A stretch of DNA of 64,000 bases from Acarospora socialis. Lineage: Eukaryota > Ascomycota > Lecanoromycetes > Acarosporales > Acarosporaceae. A program made the position numbers and the translations under genes. The notes under the pieces were generated by a model that was given only the letters and a program-made list of their open reading frames with translations, ran no database searches and was not told the DNA's origin. Below are positions 38,277-51,042 of this stretch, piece by piece. Each line of letters opens with the position of its first letter. Position 1 is the stretch's first letter. The stretch spans positions 3,968,001 to 4,032,000 of the forward strand of contig JAMYGW020000001.1 in NCBI GenBank assembly GCA_025617375.2, written 5' to 3'.

Positions 38277-38500
38277 CAGTGCCGGAAAAAACTCTGGTCC
38301 GTTCAGAACGGTCGCGAAAACCACTTTTTTTTGAAAGCCCAAATTTCTCAAAACACACAAATACTGCAACTACTCCACAACCACAGTATATTATTATAGA
38401 CTGAGTATATAGATTGATGTAAGATATATAGATCTTTCATATTTCAAAATTTGAAGTGTGTAATTGAACAAATGCATGTGTAGTCACTGAAAAAGTGTGT
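38277..38500 (+). repeat. Left terminal inverted repeat of the outer element
   Basis: About 224 bp pairing with 50817-51042. The outer 110 bp is nearly identical and the inner part more diverged. This copy keeps GTCGCGAAAACC where the right arm reads (reverse complement) GTTGTGAAAACC, that is CpG to TpG in the right arm. Confidence 0.85.
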
Positions 38501-38719
38501 TTTTGAGTGTTTTTGTTGTGAAAAAACAGCAATTTTACACTGTATTCAGTGTATAACTCAACAACAACAACTTATTACAGTAATCTGAGACTACAGTATT
38601 AAAATATATATAAATCTCTATCATACTTGAAAGTTCTGAATCAATTGATACATAAATGCTGTTGTTATTGCAATATTCAGTGATTTTTACATACAATTTG
38701 CAGCAAAATCAACAAAAAC

Positions 38720-38894
38720 TGTTGAAATTAGAAGACTCTTTAGAAGTTCAACCCTATCTGACCTAGTGTTGAAATCTTCTGTGTCACATGATATCACTTA
38801 GTTATCACACACAAAAGTTATTCTTTGTGTATTCTAGTTTTCTAGATAATAAAGACATCTAATATCAAGCAATAAAAATGTTTCAATTTCAACA
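38720..38894 (+). repeat. Copia 5' LTR
   Basis: 175 bp, TGTTGAAATTAG to TTTCAACA. By eye it differs from the 3' LTR at about 13 positions, all transitions. Confidence 0.93.
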
Positions 38895-38910
38895 GATTAT
38901 GAGTTCAAAT
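38895..38910 (+). other. Copia primer-binding site (initiator-Met half-tRNA type)
   Basis: Immediately after the LTR, GATTATGAGTTC matches the complement of the initiator tRNA-Met anticodon arm (GGTTATGAGCCC) apart from one GG-to-GA and two CC-to-TC changes. Copia elements commonly prime from this cleaved half-tRNA. Confidence 0.6.
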
Positions 38911-38989
38911 TTTCATCTTATCTAGAATGTTTTCTTGTCTTTAATTGATCTCACTGTCATTATTTTGACAACATCTTTTCTCATTTCAA

Positions 38990-41900
38990 TAATTTATCAA
39001 GATGCTTTCTCAAACAACTCTTTCATCACTTCAATATTCTCAAATGACATTCTTCTTTCACCTTCTCAATAATCTATGCATTTTGATGTTCATTCTGCAG
39101 AAACAACTCACATAATTATGACTTTCTCAAATGACACTTTCAACTTCTCTCATCTTGTTAACACTGATAACTATGTTTCATGAGCTATCAACATCAAGTT
39201 TATTCTTATAAACAAAAATCTATGAGCTGTTGTTTTTAACATTTTCTTTAAATCTGTTGTCACATCTGAAATAATCAACAATCTAAATTTAAAGTTCTCA
39301 TCAAAATACATTATCTGAAGTAGAAAAAATGACAGAACATGTGCTACTATAGTTTTTTCTTGTCAAAATGACTTTAAAAACTTCATTCAAAATCTATTTA
39401 TTCATCAGATATGATTAAAACTGAAGAAGTTGTATGAAATTCAAAAATTCAATGTTAAATATCTCATATTCACTATACTTCTCAGTCATCATTATAACAC
39501 TTTCAAGTTCATTAAGAACTATGTTAATCAGCTTAAGATTTTGTCACAACATTTGAAAGAGATAAATTCTATTTTTTCAAACTGAGTTATACTCACAATT
39601 CTTTTTAACAATCTAAAATCTACTTTCAATGTCTATGTCACAACTAAACATCAATTTATTTGAATCATTACTTTTATTTTTGATGCTCTTGTCATCAAAC
39701 TCATTGATGAGACTAAAATGAAAAATAATAAAATCTCAGTGATCATGATCTTTTGAAACAAGAACTTGAACTTAACTTTTAAATTGAACTTCAAATCAAT
39801 GTTGTTACTTCTTTACACTTATTGCAAGAAGACTGATCATGAGAAACATAACTGTTTTCTCAAATATTCTCATAAGAAAAAGAAATTTAATGTGACTAAG
39901 TTTGTTAAGCAAAAGAACAAGAACAAAGACAAAGTGATTAAGTCATTCACTTTATTAAGTCTAGTAATAACAATACTATAACTCTTAACTTTATAACTCA
40001 CATCAACAAACTTCATTCTGATGCTTACATCATCAAGTTTTATTCTGAAGTTCATGTTTCTGAGCTTTATTTGAAAACTTATAATGTTGTTGAACTTCAT
40101 TTTCATGCTTATGTCATTGAGTCTCATATCATAAACATATAAACTGTTGACACTGCAGTTTCTGATCACTTGTGCTCAATATATAAATTCTTCATCATTT
40201 ATAAGTCTATCAATAGATCTCTTCTTACAACTAATGAAGCAACTAAAATTATAGAAAAAAATCAAATTTCTCTATATTTAGTTTGTTCTGATGAAGACAT
40301 ACAAGAGATTATTCTCAATAACATTATACACTTTCTTATCATCTCTGCAAATCTCATTTTCAATATCTGTATATAAGTTAAAGACATTATGTTCAACATA
40401 AAGAATTGCATCTTACATCATAATAACAAGATTATTGAATATACATCTGAAGTTAAGAACTTATTTTGACTACAACTCAACAATACATCTCAGTTTCATG
40501 TCTTTGCAGCTAATAAAGAGTTCAAGATATCTTTTAAAATGTAACACTGTTGATTAAATCACTTAGATTATGTCAATATTAAGTAACTAATTAAGATCAT
40601 CAATGATATTAATCTTAAGAATCTTTTTAAACATCAAAATATCTGTGAATTATGCATTAAGATCAAACAGATGTGTCATCTTTACAATGCTTTCATTGAG
40701 TAAGCAACTTGATCATTAGATCTTGTTCATTTGAATATTATTGAATTTATTACACTCATCACTTATGACAGTTCAAAGTGATTTGTTATCTTCACTGACA
40801 ACTTTACTAGATTTATATGAATGATTTTCATGAAGTTCAAGATCAAAATGATTAAGCATATCAAGAACTTCATCACTTTAATGAAGATAAATTGTTTTAA
40901 CTATTCTTTAAAACATCTTTGCATTAATCTTAAGTGTGAATATCTTGTTCTGAAGAACTGATTCATCATTAATGACATTACATGAAAATTTACTACATTT
41001 TACTCATCTAAAGAAAACAGCATTTCTGAGTGACTGAATTGCATTATTTGCAAATTCACTAAAGCTATACTTAAAGACTCTGATCTGAAGTCTTATCTTT
41101 AACTGAAAGTTATTTGAACTGTAATCTATTTAAAGAATTGATCTTTTACTTATACACTCAATATAACATTATATGAAGCATGAACAGACAATGTTTCTGA
41201 TCTTTTAAGTCTTTGTATCTTCAGTACTACTGCTTAAACACATATTTTTAAGAAATGACATCAGCAAAAAGTCAAATTTGATGATCACAGTCTCAAATAT
41301 CACTATTTAAACATGAACAGTAACTTTATTTATCATATTTGAAACTCAGAATCAGAATATGTTCTTATTATTCATAACTGTTTTGTAAAAGAAAATATTA
41401 ATATCTATAAAAACATGATTAATCTAAAGATCTACAGCAAGAAAAAGACATTTAATACTGTTGATCTTTCTTTCAATTTCTCATTCTTATTCACATCTTT
41501 GTTGTTACAATTTTCTTTCTCTTCAGAAAAAGTTTTCAGATTAATTACATCATTGTTATAATCTTTGCTGTTACAGTGTTTTTAAAATCTTTGAGACATT
41601 AATTCAAATGACTTTCATTTATTGAACACATCTCAATTTAGTATGCTCAGCACAGAAAATTAAGACTTGATGTCATTTATACAGTATTCAGTCATTGAAG
41701 TTCACTTATCTTTCTCATTAACATTATTTAACATTACAGTTGACTATTCTCTTCTTCATTTCAAATTCTCATTTTTGTTCTCTTCATCTCAAAATTCTCA
41801 ACTTTCTGACTTCTTTAATGACTCTGATGCACACTTTTTGTATGTATATATTGTGATTTTTTTGAGCAATATTGTTAAATCATTTATCTATAAACAAGTT

Positions 41901-42208
41901 GTTGAGTTGTCACTGTGCAAAAAGTGAAAGCAAGTGATGAAAAATGAGATACACTTTTGAAGAAAAACAACACATAAAAGATGATTTCTATGTCATCAGA
42001 TCAGTATATTCTTCAAGAATGCTGAATGTATAAGATTAAGTGTGATGCTCATGATCAAATTAGTTACTATAAGACTTGAATAGTCAAGAACTACAAACAG
42101 CAATTCAGTGTTGACTATAATCAAATCTTTGTGTCTATTGTCAAGTCACAAATCTACAAAGCTCTCTTTGTCTTAATCACTCATTTTGATCTAGAGACTG
42201 AGCAAATG
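38990..42208 (+). pseudogene. Copia gag, integrase and start of reverse transcriptase, broken
   Basis: gag: NTDNYVSWAINIKF-like near 39170, with the Trp codon now TGA. The nucleocapsid zinc knuckle near 39818-39870 has lost its first Cys (reads YTYCKKTDHEKHNC). Integrase: the HHCC region with LNHLDYVNIK and CELCIKIKQM near 40560-40680, then the catalytic core (TDNFTRFI near 40790). Reverse transcriptase begins VDYNQIFVSIVKS near 42110 and reaches FDLETEQM, where the MITE interrupts it. Stops are scattered, mostly TGA. Confidence 0.85.
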
Positions 42209-42644
42209 TAGACTGATTAGTCAAATTAATAAAACTGAAACTAACTTGATGACAAACTGATCTGATGCATGAGTCAGTTAATGATTTTCAACTCATTGAG
42301 TCAGATTAAGTTAACATTTCTAACTTGACCTGACTCATTGAGTTGATATAACTGCATAAATTATGCATAGACATGCATATAGACATGAATAGGTCTAAAT
42401 TTAGACTATGAAGCTATGTAATTTAACAAATTATAAAATACCAAATGTGATGTGAAATTTATACTTTGCAACACCTAAAAATGGTAATATAAGTGTAATA
42501 TACTGTATTTTTAGTAATTTATTTTATAACAATCCTTATAGTGAGTCAGGTCAGGTTAGAAATGTCAACCTGACTTAACTTAGTCAAAAAACCAACTCAA
42601 CCTGGTTTTTTCAATCAGGTCAAGATTTTTTTCTATATACAACT

Positions 42645-42996
42645 TGTAATGTTCTGACCTGAGATTTCTCAGATATGTAGAGCTAAGAGTTTGTGCTTAT
42701 TGATATAACAGCTAGTCTGAAATGGTTCTGATCTTTAACTCTTAGATTGTTATTTAAGTTGAACATGATTGTTTTCATAAGAGAAATGACTCTACTATAT
42801 AGTGAGTTCACTTGCTGATCTCACTGTCAAGCTCATTAAGATGACTTGTTCATGCAATCTGTTGAGCTTGCTCATCAAGCTTGCTGTTGAGCATGTCAAG
42901 ATATTACATGACTGCTGTCTAAACATTCTTCTGAATGCACATCTTTCACATGTACACATCAGTTTGCTCTAAGTCTATTCTGACTTGATTGTAACA
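42645..42996 (-). repeat. Gypsy 3' LTR (left copy)
   Basis: 352 bp. About 43 differences from the other LTR by eye, all transitions, many at sites where an ancestral CG became CA in one copy and TG in the other. Confidence 0.92.
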
Positions 42997-43074
42997 CTAT
43001 TCTTTTCTTCTCAGATGCTAGTTCTCTAGAATTTATATAAGCAAGAGTATTCACATTGTTTGCTGTCAGTGACA

Positions 43075-43482
43075 ATGCTTTCTAAAAATTTCAATCACAT
43101 ATGAATCACAAAGAAAATTCAGATTGATGATGTACTTGCTCTGTTTTCTTGTGACTATTGTGTTCATTGTGACATTGATTGTTTTGTAATGAAATCTTGA
43201 TCAAAATGCAATAAGTGTACTCATTGTGATTGTCTGTGTATCAATGTATCATGAGAGTCTCTCAATAGAACTCATCTTTCACTTCAGAAGAAAATAAGTA
43301 AAGCAAATGATGAACTGACAGTCAAGCACACTAAGCTTGCTGCACTTTCTTCAAAAGTTGTACATCTTCAGAAAACACTGAATCAGACAGATTACTGTGC
43401 TTTGCAGAAGACTGACTGTCTTGCTGCTGAACTTGATAGTGATAATGATGAAATTGAGAATGAAGATTCTCAAACAATATTG
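43075..43482 (+). pseudogene. Opposite-strand accessory ORF in Gypsy: Cys-rich coiled-coil protein
   Basis: A plus-strand frame of 136 codons (three are TGA) runs antisense to the Gypsy polyprotein, between the left LTR and the integrase end. It reads ITKKIQIDDVLALFSCDYCV, then a CX2C...C, SKCNKCTHCDCLC cysteine-rich region, then SLNRTHLSLQKKISKANDEL and a heptad-rich coiled coil, ending in an acidic ELDSDNDEIENED tail. Several Cys probably arose from Arg by CpG decay (CGC/CGT to TGC/TGT), suggesting an ancestral pattern of two CX2CX5C-like pairs. A TATA-like ATTTATATAAG lies at about 43031-43041, some 40 bp upstream. I believe similar ORFs are common as hypothetical proteins in fungal repeats, but I know no function. 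Confidence 0.6.
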
Positions 43483-43489
43483 TAACTTG

Positions 43490-46400
43490 TTGACTTCATG
43501 TTGTCATTCTTCTGAACTAATATTGACTTCTTTTCTCAAAATGTTGAAGTGTTCTTACATAGTTCTTGAGATTTTCTCTGAGTTTTCAGATACTCTCTGA
43601 GATATTATAATCTTTTCATCTTATAAGATAATAAGCTTTCTCACTAATCATTCTTTTCTCTAGAATGTTCTTGACTTTATATTCTTCTTTGAGTTTGACA
43701 GACATTTTGATGATTTAAAGTGATATAAACTGATCACAATGCTGTAACATGAATGCATGAAATATCAGATGTATTCTCATCTTCTTAAGTAAGTTCAATT
43801 TGTAGCTTAACTTCTTAATGTTTCATGTAATCTTGAATAATTCAATGCTCTTGTTTTTCAGCTTCTTGCTTCTCTCTTTAGTTCTTATATTGTCTGTTTT
43901 TAAATATATCTTCTTTTCTTTTTCAAATGATCTTGTCTCTATCATTTGTTCTGTCTGCTGTTTGATCTGTTTTGTTAGATTTTGATGCAGTTTCTTTATT
44001 TAAGCAATATTCAAAATTGCTTTTTGACTTCATGATCTATGTTCTTCAGAATCTTGTCATATCTTTGAGTTATAGTCATAGTTTTCATAGAAAGATGTCT
44101 CTTCTGTGATCTCATTTTTTGCATTGTTGTATGCAAACTGTGCTGTTGACAACAGTCATACTCAGTTATCTTGACTCTTGTTGACATAGTGTCTCAAGTA
44201 CATTTTTACTGTCTGATTCATTCATTTGCTCTGTTTATCTGTCTGTGAGTGATATGCTGTCAACATTTTGTGTTTTATTCTGAGTTCTGCTGTGAGCATT
44301 TCTCAAAACTTGCTTGTAAACAGCTTGTTTCTGTTGATGATAAACTTCTTTAATAATTCATGATTGCTAATCAATTCTTGCAGTATGATGTATGTCAATA
44401 CTGATGCTGTTGTAGTTTCTTTGAATAAAATGAACATTGTGTACTTGATCAATCTATTCACTATCATCAATATACTGTTGAATTTCACTTTTCATGCTGA
44501 GTCTTTTGATGATGATAGCTTTGTAATGAAATTTATAATAACTGACTTTCATGATATATCTGATGCATCTAGTTGCATTACTTCATTGTATTGTTTATCT
44601 TAATTGATCTTGTTTCTTTGACATGAATTGCACACAGTGATCATTTTGATGATTCAATTTCTAAGATTGTTAATGTTGCATCTTTTCTGCACTAGATTCT
44701 CAGTGTGCTTGATCTTTAGATATTCATTGATTCTGCTGTGATAACACATCTTAATGAGTTCTTTGTCTGTCAAGAAAACTTGTTTCATCTTGTATATCAC
44801 TGCTAAGTTCTTCATGAGAACTTCTTTGTCATCTTTGCTTAGAATTTTGATGTGTATTGTCTGTATATCTTCATGATTAAGCTCTCTACTCAAGACATCT
44901 GCTTCATTATTCTCATTATTTTTCTTGTAATGAATCTGAAATTCATAGTTTGTCAACTGTTCTGCTCAATGAATCTGTTATTGATTGAGTTGTTTTGTTG
45001 TTGCAAAGTTTCTCAGATTTTTGTGATCTGTATAGATCTGAATCAGTTTGTTTGTTTTTATAAGATAAGATCTTCAGTCTTATAGTGCTTCTACTATCAC
45101 AAGAAGTTTCTTATCATGAATTTTATATTTTTTCTTGAATTCTGATAACTTTCTAAATTGATATGCTATGAGTCTCTGTTGCTTCTTCTCAATTTAATAC
45201 AAATATACTTTTACTGTGAAATCTGAAGCATCAGTTTTCAGTGTCTTCTTGCATGCTAAATTGAGTATTCTCAGATGTGCTGTTCTGCTAAAACTTTTCT
45301 TTAATATGTGAAATGCACTCTTCTGCTCTTGATCTCAATGTTATTCTTTGTTCTTGTGTGTTAAATGTGTCAGTGATTCTGCAATTCTTGCATAATTTGA
45401 TACAAACTTTCAATAATAGTTTGTTAACTCTAGAAAAATCTGCACTTTCTTGATTCATTTCAGTGTTAATCAGTTTCTGACTGCTTCTGTCTTCTTTAAA
45501 TTCTTCTTGATTTGTTCAGATTGAATTATATAGTTTAGAAACTTAACTTTCTTGATCTTGAATCTGCTTTTTGACTTTTTCACATATAAGACTTTCTTGT
45601 TGAGCTTTGTCAATATCTTGTGCATGTGTTCTCAGTGTTTCTCAAGATCTTCTGAGTATATCAGAATATCATCAAGATATGTGATCACAAAATCATCAAG
45701 ATATTCTCTCAATATGTCATTGATCAATCTCTGAAAGATGACTGATGTGTTTTTCAGTTTAAATGACATAATAATGTACTCATAATGTCTGTATCTTGTT
45801 TAGAATGCTGTCTTTCACTCTTTATCTTCTTTCATTCTGACTTGATAATAGATGTCTTTAAGATCTAAGCTTGTGAATTACTTAGTCTTGTCTAGTTAAT
45901 CTTGCAACTCTTCTATCAGCAGTAGAGAATAACTATCTCAATGAGTTATCTTGTTGAGTTGTCTGTAGTCAACACATAGTCATTTTTTGTCATTCTTCTT
46001 TGACATGAACAGAATTGAATATTCTGTCAATGATTTTGATGATTTTATGAATTCTCTCTTAAGATTCTTGTCAAGATAAGTTCTAACTTTCTTGAGTTAA
46101 TTCTTGCTCATTGAGTATAAAGACATTTACTTAGATTGTTTTTCATTCAATAACAGTATTTCATGATTTCATGACTTATACTCTGATAAGCTCATTTCTG
46201 ATTGTTTGAGAATCTTGTATGTGTCTTCAATCATATATATTTCTTTTGTAACTCAGTCAATCTTCAAATTTCTTCTTCACAATCAGAGCATTTTTAGCAC
46301 TGCATTGTATCTGATTGATTTTATAACATTAAATGTTATCTCTTGTGAGTTTTCAAGAATTAAGACTTTCACACAGATTTTCTCATCAATTCTTTTGATG

Positions 46401-48453
46401 ACTTCATTCATCATTTGTATGTTGAATGAATAGTGCACTCACTGTGTCTCTAATTTCAACATGTTGACTGTTTTTCAGTTTATAATATTACTGTCTGCTT
46501 CAAAATTCATCAATATGTTGATTTGATGTTCATTGATTATAATCTTGATTCATATTTAATGATCATTGTCTTGTCTTTGAGATGCTACTAGCTTCTTGAT
46601 CTCTAGTCTTGTTGAGAAAGCTTTTCATTTTTTGACTCACTTGATCACTTGACTCATCTTTAAAGTTCTTGAAATCATCTTGATTTTCTTTTAATCATGA
46701 AATTCACATACTCTAAACTGTGTCACTCAATGTGTCTTTCTGAGTGTAGTCAAAGTTTATACTGATTGTACTTCATCTGCAACTGACTCTCAAAGACTTT
46801 TACTCTTTACAGAAATTCAGATGATATATATTCTTCATTGAAGATTCATTTATCTTTATTCTGTGTAATATACTCTTCAGACAAGCATATCTTGATCTTG
46901 TGACTCTTGATTTTTCACACAAGAAATTCTGATATTGATTTTCTCATAACTGTTTGTATGTCTTTCATTAAATTGTCAAATTCTTTGCATATCTCTGTTT
47001 TCTGATTTCAAGTCTTTTTCTTTTTTTTCTGCATTGTACTGCAATCTGATGCTGTTTCTCTCTGAGTACTTAGATCTCTTTTAATTTTTGTTTAATATTC
47101 TCTTGAAAGTTCTGTCTCAGCATTGTCTGAACTTTCTTTTGTGAGTGTATTGTTATTGAAAAATATTCAAGATTTGTCAATCTGAAATTCATGATCATCA
47201 GTTTCTTTGATGTCATCTTTAAGAATATTATCTTCTTTCTTGACATCAAGAACTCTTTTCTTGATAAGAATAGTTAATTTTTTTTTGTAAGTTAATTGAC
47301 TCATCACATCATATCTGTTCTTCATGTCTTTGTGTGATTTCTAAGAATATCATTCAGCTTTATCTTTTGTGCTCATGTGTACTCTGCACATGTCATTGTA
47401 ACAGACTGTTTAGTTGAGAGTGTTGTGCACTACACATGTATTTTTCTTAACTGTCACTGCAACATTTTTTCTTTTCATCTGAGATCTGTTGCATTCTCAG
47501 ACAAGATGTCTGAATTTTCTGCAGTTGTAACATGTTTGTGTTTTGTTTTGCAGTGTTATCTAAGACTTATTGAATCACTCTGACTGACATTCATACTCTG
47601 TTCATTTAGTTTTTCATGACTTCTGATGATGCTTCTTAATTATATTGAGATTTATAGAGTTTGTTCTTCTATGTCTTATCAATAAAATATATCACTTTGT
47701 TCACAGTCAGAAGCTTTCTTCTTGACCTTTTATCATAGATGACATTTGATATTTTTTTTGTTTCATTTGTTGTTTTCACTGATAACTGTCAATGTTAATA
47801 CTCAGATTAATTATTTTCTGAAGATTGTCTGATCATTTTGCTCAGACTATCTTGTCTTTGATGAACTTTCTCAACTCACAATAGTACTGGTAAATGAGTG
47901 CTTCATTATTTCATTTAATAAGTGCTGCTAACTGCTGAAACTCTGTGATGTATACTGCTGCTGATTCACTCTGTCATAAGATGTGAACTTGTTTCTTGAC
48001 TGTTCTTTCTTCATTAATCACTTCAAAGACTTTTCTTAGTTTCTTCTTAAATCATACATAGTCATTGAACATAGACTCTGTGTCTGCATTGCATTCTTCA
48101 TACTTCTTTTCTAGAAACTCATGCAGCTTGAAATCAATTCAATTAAAAGCTGCATTCACAAGATAGATTGTCACAAATAATATCTTTTCTTGATTGATCT
48201 GAAACTTCAATTGATTAAACTTAATGTACAGATTGAGTTTAGTCACAAAGACTCACAGCTTCTCTCTCTCTTCATCAAAGATATCTGGTATCTGTATCTT
48301 TGATGTGCTTAAAAGTAGTTGTATAGCTTGAATCAACATCATCACTGATTGTGCTGTCATTCTATTCAGAGTAAATAATAGAGATAAGTTTGTCTGAACT
48401 TGCTTCAAGAACAAAGTTAAGACATTCTTCTGTGTGTCAGACATCATACTCAT
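43490..48453 (-). pseudogene. Gypsy gag-pol, broken
   Basis: Read on the minus strand. gag starts MSMMSDTQKNVLTLFLKQ at 48453, 23 bp inside the LTR, and has a CCHC zinc knuckle (CYNCRKFRHLV, stop, EC) at 47532-47491. Reverse transcriptase shows the MPFGLTNAP equivalent decayed to MSFKLKNTS near 45760 and an intact TYLDDILIYS near 45655-45682. RNase H ends with EADVLSREL near 44880. The integrase zinc finger CNSCQRNKI lies near 44620. TGA stops are frequent. Confidence 0.85.
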
Positions 48454-48475
48454 TATATTATAAGAGTATTTAAAG

Positions 48476-48827
48476 TGTAATGTTCTGATCTGAGATTTCT
48501 TGAGTATGTAGAGCTAAGAGTTTGTGCTTATTGATATAATGACTGGTCTGAAACAGTTCTGATCTTTAACTTTTAGATTGTTATTTAAGTTGAACATGAT
48601 TGTTTTCATAAGAAAAATGACTCTACTATATAGTGAGTTCATTTGTTAATCTTGTTGTTGAGCTCATCAAGGTGACTTACTCATGCAATCTGTTGAGCTT
48701 GCTTGTCAAGCTCACTGTTAAGCATGTTGAGATATCACATAACTGCTGTCTAAACATTCTTCTGAATGCATGTCTTTTACATGTATGCATCAGTCTGCTT
48801 TGAGTCTATTCTGACTTGATTATAACA
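48476..48827 (-). repeat. Gypsy 5' LTR (right copy)
   Basis: 352-bp direct repeat of 42645-42996, TGTAATGTTCTGA to GATTATAACA on the plus strand. Confidence 0.92.
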
Positions 48828-48856
48828 CAACTTAACTCAATCTGACAGTCAGTTTA

Positions 48857-50100
48857 AGCAAATGAACATGATAACTGCATTTCTTTATGATTCTATTGAT
48901 CAAATCATCTATATGAAGCTTTCTCATGAATATGAACTTTCTGATATAATTGTCTTACTTAATAAGATTTTATAAGATTTAAAGCAGATATCTCATCTTT
49001 AATATAAGACTTTATACAATCATCTTATCTCACTTGATTTTTATTGTCTTAATTTTGATCATAGTGTCTTCTTTCAAATCAATAACAATATTATTATTGC
49101 TGTCTACATCAACAATCTTCTTCTTATAGAAGAGAATAAATCAGTTATTCAAGACATCAAAGTACATCTTACTAACATTTTCAAGATGTCAGATCTTAAT
49201 TCTGTGTTTTATTATTTAAGCATAAAGATTGAATACAATCATTCTGAACACACTATTTGTTTTATTTAGACAGTTTACATTAATAAGATTCTTAAGACAT
49301 TTCAACAGTTGTAGATAGTTTCTGTCAACATATTTATGAATTTTGATGCAGTACTCATAAAGAAGTTCATTACTCAGACTGACATCACTACTATTTGATA
49401 CTATCAAAAAACAGTAAAATCATTAATGTACATTATATTACAAATGCATTCTGACATCATCTTCATTATCTTTATTATTAGTCAGTTCAGTCAGAATCTG
49501 AATGTCTTACATTACAATACTGTTAAATAAGTTTTTAAATATCTTGCTGACACTATGAACTTAAGTGTCATTTATGACATCACTGATATGAATCTCATTG
49601 ATTATATTAATACTGATTGAGATAAATGTCACAATACTCAGAAGTTCACTGACACTTATTTTTTTTTTCTTTTTGAAGATTTTATTAATTGATGTTTAAA
49701 ATGTCAACAGATTGTTGTCTTATTGTTCATTAAGTCTGAATACATGACTGAAATGTAAGCAACAAAGAAAGTCATATGACTTTATCATTTTCTTATGAAA
49801 ATTAACTTTCTTAATGACAATAATTCTATTATTATTTGTGCTGACAATCATGATGTTATAAATTTAGCTTGAAATTCTGAGTTTCACATCTGCATTAAGC
49901 ACATCAATATTCAGTATTACTTTGTTCATAAAACTGTTAATTGCAGTCTCATCAATCTTAAGTTTGTTTCTACATCTGAATAAACAGCTAATGAACTCAT
50001 TAAGTCTTTATTCATCATTAAGTTTTGTTACTTTCTTAGTCAGCTAGATCTTCTAGCTGCAATAACTTTATAAATTAAATCAATAAAATATCAATTAGTT
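48857..50100 (+). pseudogene. Copia reverse transcriptase/RNase H, continuation after insertions
   Basis: Frame resumes directly after the MITE target duplication with NMITAFLYDSIDQIIYMKLS, then AVYINNLLLIEENK (decayed from the YVDDLLL active-site box: both Asp codons now Asn) and SQFSQNLNVLHYNTVK. RNase H blocks near 49830-50060 include ICADNHDVINLA and KHINIQYYFVHKTV, where the family has D..SA..LA and KHIDIRYHFIR. Multiple stops. Confidence 0.85.
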
Positions 50101-50606
50101 GCAATCTGAGTGATTGACTTACTTACTCATGAAGTATAACAGATCATAGTCTACATTATAACAATTAAGTCAACTTCTTGAATTGTCAACTGATTTTTTG
50201 ATTGCACATTTGAGTCTTAATCTCATCATTGCTTTCTTTGTTGACTAGAACTTATGTTGACAATGTTATAAATTGAATTGATGAAGTATTCATTAATAAT
50301 AATCAGAGTAACTGACTTAATGAGCTTGTGAAGTATGACAGATCATAGTTTACATCATAAGATTGTTAAGTCAGTTCTTTTCAATTATTCATTCTTTTTG
50401 TTGTGCATTTAAGTTCTGACCTCATTATTGTTTCACTTTTTGCATCTTTGCTACATCTTTTTCTTTTGTCTTGTTCTTGCTTTCTCATCTCACTGTCATC
50501 TCAATTTTTTTCATGACTTCTTTGTCATCTTGCTGTCAGATCTATCTCTTGATAGAATTGAAGAATCTATACTGATTAGTGAATGAATATCTAGATCATC
50601 TAGATT

Positions 50607-50616
50607 TAAGAAGAAG
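50607..50616 (+). other. Copia polypurine tract
   Basis: AAGAAGAAG immediately before the 3' LTR, the expected plus-strand primer position. Confidence 0.55.
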
Positions 50617-50791
50617 TGTTGAAATTAGAAGGCTCTTTAGAAGTTCAACTCTATCTGATCTAGTGTTGGAATCTTCTGTGTCATGTGATATCACTTAGTC
50701 ATCATGCACAAAAGTTATTCTTTGTGTATTCTAGTCTTCTAGATAATAAAGACACCTAATATCAAGCAATAGAAATGTTTCAATTCCAACA
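50617..50791 (+). repeat. Copia 3' LTR
   Basis: 175-bp direct repeat of 38720-38894 followed by the AAAAC target duplication. Confidence 0.93.
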
Positions 50792-50816
50792 AAAACTCAT
50801 GTTGTGTCGCTGTTTT

Positions 50817-51042
50817 ACACATCTTTATGATAACTACTCATGCAATTGCTCAAAGATATGTATGAAAATTGAAATTCTAATAGATCTATATATAATTCAT
50901 CATTCTATATACTCAGACTGTCTGTATAAGTTGTGGTTGTGGAGTAGTTGCAGTATTGTGTGTTTTGAGAAATTTGAGCTTTCAAAAAAAAAAAGTGGTT
51001 TTCACAACCGTTCTGAACGGACCAGAGTTTTTTCCGGCACTG
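50817..51042 (-). repeat. Right terminal inverted repeat of the outer element
   Basis: About 226 bp, inverted relative to 38277-38500. It ends 74 bp before the start codon of the DUF3445 gene. Confidence 0.85.

Follow-up and report, generated by a model that had tools for sequence, protein, structure and literature searches.

A transposon nest in Acarospora socialis probably decayed by a RIP-like process directed at CpC and CpG rather than CpA

In the genome of the lichen fungus Acarospora socialis (31.1 Mb in 38 contigs), the C-to-T decay of transposons has almost certainly shifted in context to CpC and CpG. The case considered here is an island of nested elements in a window of 64,000 nucleotides (NCBI GenBank assembly GCA_025617375.2, contig JAMYGW020000001.1, positions 3,968,001 to 4,032,000 of the forward strand), which is part of contig C1. 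The nest occupies 38309-51010 of the window and consists of a Gypsy element inside a Copia element inside a terminal inverted repeat (TIR) element. It was probably decayed by a mutator that resembles repeat-induced point mutation (RIP), converts C to T on both strands and has CpS as its new target (CpS stands for a C with C or G on its 3' side, CpW for one with A or T there).

The composition of the island differs sharply from that of its flanks. Between 38391 and 50957 (12,567 bp) there is one CpG and there are 31 CpC plus GpG, whereas 200 mononucleotide shuffles give on average 260 (minimum 229) and 529 (minimum 472), respectively. The flanks (50,900 bp) are normal, with 3,080 CpG and 6,276 CpC plus GpG, and the edges are abrupt: on the left CpG ends at 38315, none follows before 50808, and the density is normal again from 51009 on. 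CpA and TpG are high in the island, with a (CpA+TpG)/(ApC+GpT) ratio of 1.54 against 1.17 in the flanks, and TpA is not enriched (TpA/ApT of 0.69 and 0.73). RIP is usually called when TpA/ApT exceeds about 0.89 and (CpA+TpG)/(ApC+GpT) falls below about 1.03; both standard indices thus point away from RIP in the island. An earlier note, made by eye from the letters, had described CpG as nearly gone, CC and GG as scarce, and CA and TG as still plentiful (six CA but not one CC, GG or CG in the line 40081-40140), and had remarked that CpA-type RIP would raise TpA. The observation is confirmed and is stronger than stated. The shift is missing from the window flanks and from 18 of 20 one-kb samples taken at fixed places on 12 contigs; the other two are CpG-null, and the depletion is widespread and bimodal in the genome.

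Which cytosine mutates is seen best in a family of long interspersed nuclear elements (LINEs). With a 2-kb piece of the LINE as query, 41 matches were listed, 40 of 62 candidates having been scored and one row being a 125-bp fragment; 41 copies were retrieved, including one (L047) found by a reverse transcriptase (RT) search. The majority of copies served as the reference state. Fourteen of the listed matches, located on four contigs, have a rounded identity of 100%. Over 2000 columns these 14 copies vary at 28 sites (24 CpC, 3 CpG and 1 CpA), all of them C-to-T and with no other type of substitution in those columns, and each copy has 1-6 differences from the majority. Changes thus affect 27 of 123 CpS sites and 1 of 592 CpW sites (Fisher p 4e-21). 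The remaining 27 copies form a more mutated set, in which C-to-T changes are found at 649 of 2757 CpC (23.5%) and 54 of 266 CpG (20.3%) but only at 134 of 8848 CpA (1.5%) and 97 of 6761 CpT (1.4%). When one copy per contig is kept, which reduces shared descent among the counted cells, the result stands: in these 13 copies CpC is changed at 351/1360, CpG at 28/130, CpA at 69/4290 and CpT at 63/3286 (CpC versus CpA plus CpT, p 8e-192; CpC versus CpG, p 0.34, with few CpG sites). Counted by site, 98 of 105 CpC and 59 of 332 CpA are changed in one or more of the 27 copies, and a smaller count of 10 copies against four reference copies gives the same result.

The changes occur on both strands, and the target is decided by the 3' neighbour, since in CCA the first C is changed in 437 of 1658 cases and the second in 17 of 1658. 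The first C of CCC is changed less (30/349) than the first C of CCA or CCT (182/750). These details bear on editing of retrotransposon cDNA or single strands by an APOBEC-like cytosine deaminase. APOBEC3G does prefer CC, which would favour such an enzyme, but it mutates the 3' C on one cDNA strand; here the 5' C is changed, both strands are mutated, and the TIR element, a DNA element, seems mutated too. Editing of the APOBEC3G type is rejected on these grounds, and an APOBEC-like deaminase in general is very improbable. No match to the APOBEC_N profile was found in the genome, a result of little weight since the control genomes were silent too. Still less credible is that ordinary CpA-directed RIP reached saturation and left an odd residue, or that composition or assembly produced an artefact. 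CpA and CpT changes are indeed present in old copies, but in the LINE copies that precede saturation all but one of the 28 variable sites are CpS, CpA plus TpG is raised where TpA is not, and an assembly artefact is opposed by the spread of the 14 most alike copies over four contigs.

The Copia family provides a second polarised comparison. Two Copia relatives, L083 (C2:444 kb) and L084 (C20:54 kb), 82% alike over 837 bp, are normal in guanine plus cytosine (GC) content and show no depletion of CpG or CpC, whereas CpG and CC are absent, and GG occurs at most once, in each of six other copies of about 2 kb. Relative to L083, changes in the old Copia copies affect 613 of 710 CpC, 296 of 518 CpG, 176 of 668 CpA and 265 of 802 CpT; relative to the more distant L084 the counts are 818/1033, 507/972, 380/1075 and 449/1181. 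The proposal of RIP-like decay preferring CpC and CpG over CpA is therefore supported in two families, both polarised by reference copies, and neither a dominance of CpA nor equal rates in all contexts, the two outcomes set beforehand as contrary to it, is seen in the LINE or Copia alignments.

Though it lacks a reference copy in this analysis, the Gypsy family agrees in the main with the CpS preference. Thirty copies cut at 5 kb were compared, the window's included (from 40 listed among 383 candidates). CpG is absent from 29 of them; the other, L022, has 24 CpG, none within its 2-kb Gypsy segment, and the 30 Gypsy segments hold no CpG in 59,939 bases. The sum of CC and GG per 5 kb ranges from 1 to 92, being highest in L022 (58 CC, 34 GG), L031 (51 and 25) and L011 (29 and 17). 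At 130 columns read as ancestral CpG, CpG is retained nowhere (TG 2009, CA 1468, TA 409), and at 41 sites where some copy has CC the others have TC 735, CT 179, TT 157 and other pairs 89 times. CpG has thus been lost further than CpC, as would be expected if past mixed-context RIP had combined with a separate, methylation-driven loss of CpG, so that the two depletions differ in cause. Four LINE copies with open frames point the same way: in 2 kb they hold only 5-6 CpG, while CC and GG number 44-62 each. The per-cytosine rates for CpC and CpG in the LINE family are nevertheless alike, as far as the few CpG sites allow, and both contexts are among the 28 youngest LINE changes; two separate causes are accordingly unlikely.

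The pairs of long terminal repeats (LTRs) in the window, from which the earlier note had argued, carry less weight. Its figure of about 13 differences for the Copia pair, transitions throughout, agrees with the alignment (13 of 175, all transitions). For the Gypsy pair it had given 43 differences, all transitions; the 351 aligned columns hold 39 transitions and one transversion beside an indel, and so the predominance of transitions stands but the number and the exclusivity do not. CA in one LTR faces TG in the other at nine Gypsy and two Copia positions, and by a hand count from the difference classes, 21 of the 39 Gypsy transitions and 10 of the 13 in Copia are directly CpC, GpG or CpG. Since about half of the Gypsy differences lie outside direct CpS contexts and the pairs are unpolarised, the LTR pairs were rejected as the chief proof; alone they are insufficient for a context preference, which the LINE family supplies.

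The mutator would act like RIP on a C followed by C or G, on both strands, so that CpG would become TpG or CpA and CpC would become TpC, while CpA and CpT would mostly stay. With CpA and CpT largely spared, decay stalls at about 25-34% GC and TpA is not enriched. Such a mutator would recognise repeats and would act in the sexual cycle, its lesions being made by an RID-like methyltransferase (C2:1.42 Mb) or perhaps by a DIM-2-like one. The pattern shares with RIP the C-to-T changes on both strands in repeats and the sparing of other DNA, the latter judged from composition only, and departs from it in lacking the CpA preference, in both the more mutated and the most alike LINE copies. A premeiotic, RID-dependent process of the RIP type is likely, though inferred. 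That the mutator acted recently follows from the most alike LINE copies, whose differences lie almost solely at CpS.

The strongest competitor involves no RIP: a DIM-2-like or DNMT5-like enzyme would methylate heterochromatin at CpC and CpG, and ordinary deamination in mitotic life would then give the changes. Deamination of 5-methylcytosine at CpG has been proposed for a rust fungus (PMC12774611). The genome holds two further methyltransferase genes that we would label in this way, and the LINE clusters described below look centromeric. Against this, CpS hits are not clock-like: the 27 partly related LINE copies show no correlation between them and other substitutions (rho 0.23, p 0.24), whereas CpW C-to-T changes do follow those substitutions (rho 0.59, p 0.001), which favours an episodic process. 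The load also varies within the C10 cluster, where one copy (L068) has 3 differences from the majority and two others have 15 (L052) and 34 (L063) CpS hits, although insertion age could account for this. We know of no precedent for strong CpC methylation, which also counts against the idea. Deamination confined to CpG and accumulating with time is rejected, as CpC is changed as frequently as CpG and the changes show no correlation with other divergence; the broader methylation explanation is a real but minor possibility. On the RIP-like reading, CpW change is mostly background and CpS change episodic, with weak CpW activity possible.

Several observations weigh against this reading. In the LINE copies CpS hits correlate with CpW C-to-T changes (rho 0.65, p 0.0003), so some CpW activity is possible, and same-strand tracts were looked for in these copies and none were found. 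The copies share changes by descent, so that cells are not independent, and their reference is a majority. In the Gypsy family 118 of the 179 CT cells precede A or T, which contradicts a strict rule, and columns vary between CA and TA (73), TG and TA (108), CT and TT (176) and AG and AA (66), which implies CpW changes or double hits. Old Copia copies have 26-38% of their CpA and CpT changed; these contexts do mutate in the long term, though less. Eighteen of the 39 Gypsy and three of the 13 Copia LTR transitions precede A or T when read on the C strand and are not directly CpS. A strong cycle of Neurospora RIP gives far more than 1-6 differences per copy. There is no evident length threshold, as the TIR elements of about 627 bp seem mutated too (by eye and at few sites); with regard to homology length and identity, the two Copia relatives that are 82% alike over 837 bp persist in GC-normal form. 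The evidence is drawn from sequence throughout.

The genome has what we take to be three DNA methyltransferase genes, represented by four DNA_methylase matches. The gene on C2 (1418838 onward) matches the profile in two pieces (positions 2-160 and 254-324), is the sole full match in the genome and encodes the motifs SPPCQ, LENTSG and QIGNAVPP, by which we take it to be RID-like. Its best database relatives are 59-72% identical, and the best named one is from Pleopsidium flavum (51%). For the phosphoglucomutase of this genome, too, P. flavum, a member of the Acarosporaceae, gives the best named hit (93%). A second gene (C3:855 kb) has DUF7893, a BAH match slightly under the cut-off and 9bap as best solved relative, and is presumably DIM-2-like; the third (C8:614 kb) is presumably DNMT5-like by its motif. 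In the catalytic loop SPPCQ-VFS-x-AHT, the variable position is W in the C2 enzyme and five relatives, F in four and P in P0003 and P0004; of 120 hits, 103 yielded the motif, and in 83 of these P or D occupies the position. We assume from the HhaI and DNMT3A structures that this position adjoins the residue that enters the DNA, which makes it a lead and not evidence.

The TIR element is split by the Copia insertion, with the target-site duplication (TSD) AAAAC at 38715-38719 and 50792-50796. Its left part (38309..38719) is 95-99% identical to eight other copies of this element, which resembles a miniature inverted-repeat transposable element and is about 627 bp whole; the right part (50792..51010) is 84-99% identical to them. 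The 411 bp of the left part hold 3 CpG, 5 CC and 1 GG, all in the outer 80 bp or so and none in the interior. The eight retrieved copies (L069-L076) and the window's have 0-3 CpG, 0-5 CC and 0-1 GG in their left 411-415 bp, and by eye the remaining outer CC and CG are altered in some copies and retained in others. The eight copies, 95-99% alike, share the target-stripped interior, and so the element seems to have multiplied after its interior lost CpG and CpC. A majority-based count (CpC 2/9, CpG 0/0, CpA 9/574, CpT 5/315) has too few sites. Exemption of short elements by length is unsupported by these few sites. The CC-to-TC and CG-to-TG changes earlier reported between the TIR arms hold for the outer 80 bp or so (one and two, respectively) but not for the inner arms, which differ in many other ways.

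The Copia element has a 175-bp 5' LTR with TG...CA ends (38720..38894, plus strand) and a 3' LTR (50617..50791, plus strand). The left part of its internal region (38895..42644, plus strand), as depleted as the six other copies, has no CpG and nearly no CpC or GpG except within a small repeat (42343..42640) that adjoins the Gypsy insertion, has 14 matches genome-wide including itself, and carries 12 of the 33 CC and GG found in 38391-51010. The Gypsy element, flanked by the TSD CAACT (42640-42644 and 48828-48832), has 352-bp LTRs at 42645..42996 and 48476..48827 and an internal region on the minus strand (42997..48475) that holds no CpG and was compared with the 29 other copies. An RVT_1 match with six stops (45527-45979, minus strand) is its RT remnant; the Copia RT remnant (RVT_2, 48832..49305, plus strand, profile positions 71-231) has three stops. 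These remnants back the naming of the two elements as Gypsy and Copia, and the start of the second at the Gypsy insertion suggests that Gypsy inserted in the Copia RT region. No tRNA genes were found in the window.

The LINE family has further features. Contigs C1 to C14 have a single cluster each (14 of 14), spanning at most about 150 kb, and all 41 listed matches lie in these clusters (for instance, C1:2.65-2.80 Mb, C14:11-86 kb and C10:186-266 kb). The clusters are candidate centromeres with a centromere-confined LINE; VdLTRE9 of Verticillium is a comparable element (PMC7482064). On C14, one segment (L085, 25300-26100) has 5% GC, far under the mutated islands. Among RVT_1 matches of LINE length, 19 rows with stops contain 29 TGA, 4 TAA and 2 TAG by hand count, an excess that fits TGG-to-TGA and CGA-to-TGA (CpC and CpG mutation) rather than CAA or CAG to TAA or TAG. 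The four copies with long open frames (L035-L038), whose CpG, CC and GG counts are given above, were apparently CpG-poor before mutation.

RIP in Neurospora crassa (RID/DIM-2) is alike in its C-to-T changes on both strands in repeats and in the presence of what we take to be RID-like and DIM-2-like genes; it differs in that CpC and CpG lead here, the LINE family having rates at CpA and CpT that are lower by a factor of about 15. Cladonia rangiformis belongs to the same class as A. socialis. Also a lichen fungus, it has homologues of RID and DIM-2, its RIP islands are sharp, and most of its chromosomes carry one large RIP region read as the centromere, but its RIPped DNA peaks at about 16% GC against 25-34% here, and the words "dinucleotide" and "CpG" are absent from the text of that paper (PMC12542154). 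The order of contexts in N. crassa is CpA>CpT>CpG>CpC, and in Trichoderma reesei CpG is a leading context as it is here, although CpA is on a par with it and CpC is least (PMC5496416). CpG is favoured over CpA in MATE elements of Aspergillus nidulans (CpG, then CpA), and CpG (TCG) in Ty1 elements of Microbotryum; the available part of that source does not mention CpC among the targets (PMC2621366). Rhizoctonia solani AG8 has C-to-T single-nucleotide polymorphisms, of which those at CpC are the most closely spaced of the four contexts (Table 2), but they are genome-wide, affecting genes as much as repeats, and the authors call the hypermutation CpG-biased (PMC4014442). Preference for CpG is thus precedented, whereas CpC as the leading repeat-targeted context was not found in those portions of the RIP-context literature that were compared; earlier CpC reports are possible.

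A survey of 1,239 genomes describes RIP-like defences as sharing a preference for CpA (PMC12543289), to which the A. socialis genome stands as a clean counter-example. Standard RIP indices call the island un-RIPped, so scans that rely on such indices alone would miss it. A question still open, namely which part of the RIP machinery determines the dinucleotide that is attacked, becomes testable. A tentative answer, which we rate below even chances, is that an RID-type methyltransferase of the Acarosporales switched from CpA to CpS, possibly via a bulky residue in the catalytic loop (W or F, where P or D is usual), and that some elements (the TIR element and the most alike LINE copies, the latter being nearly CpG-free) responded by near loss of targets. 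Loss of target sites may be a route by which transposons escape a context-bound mutator.

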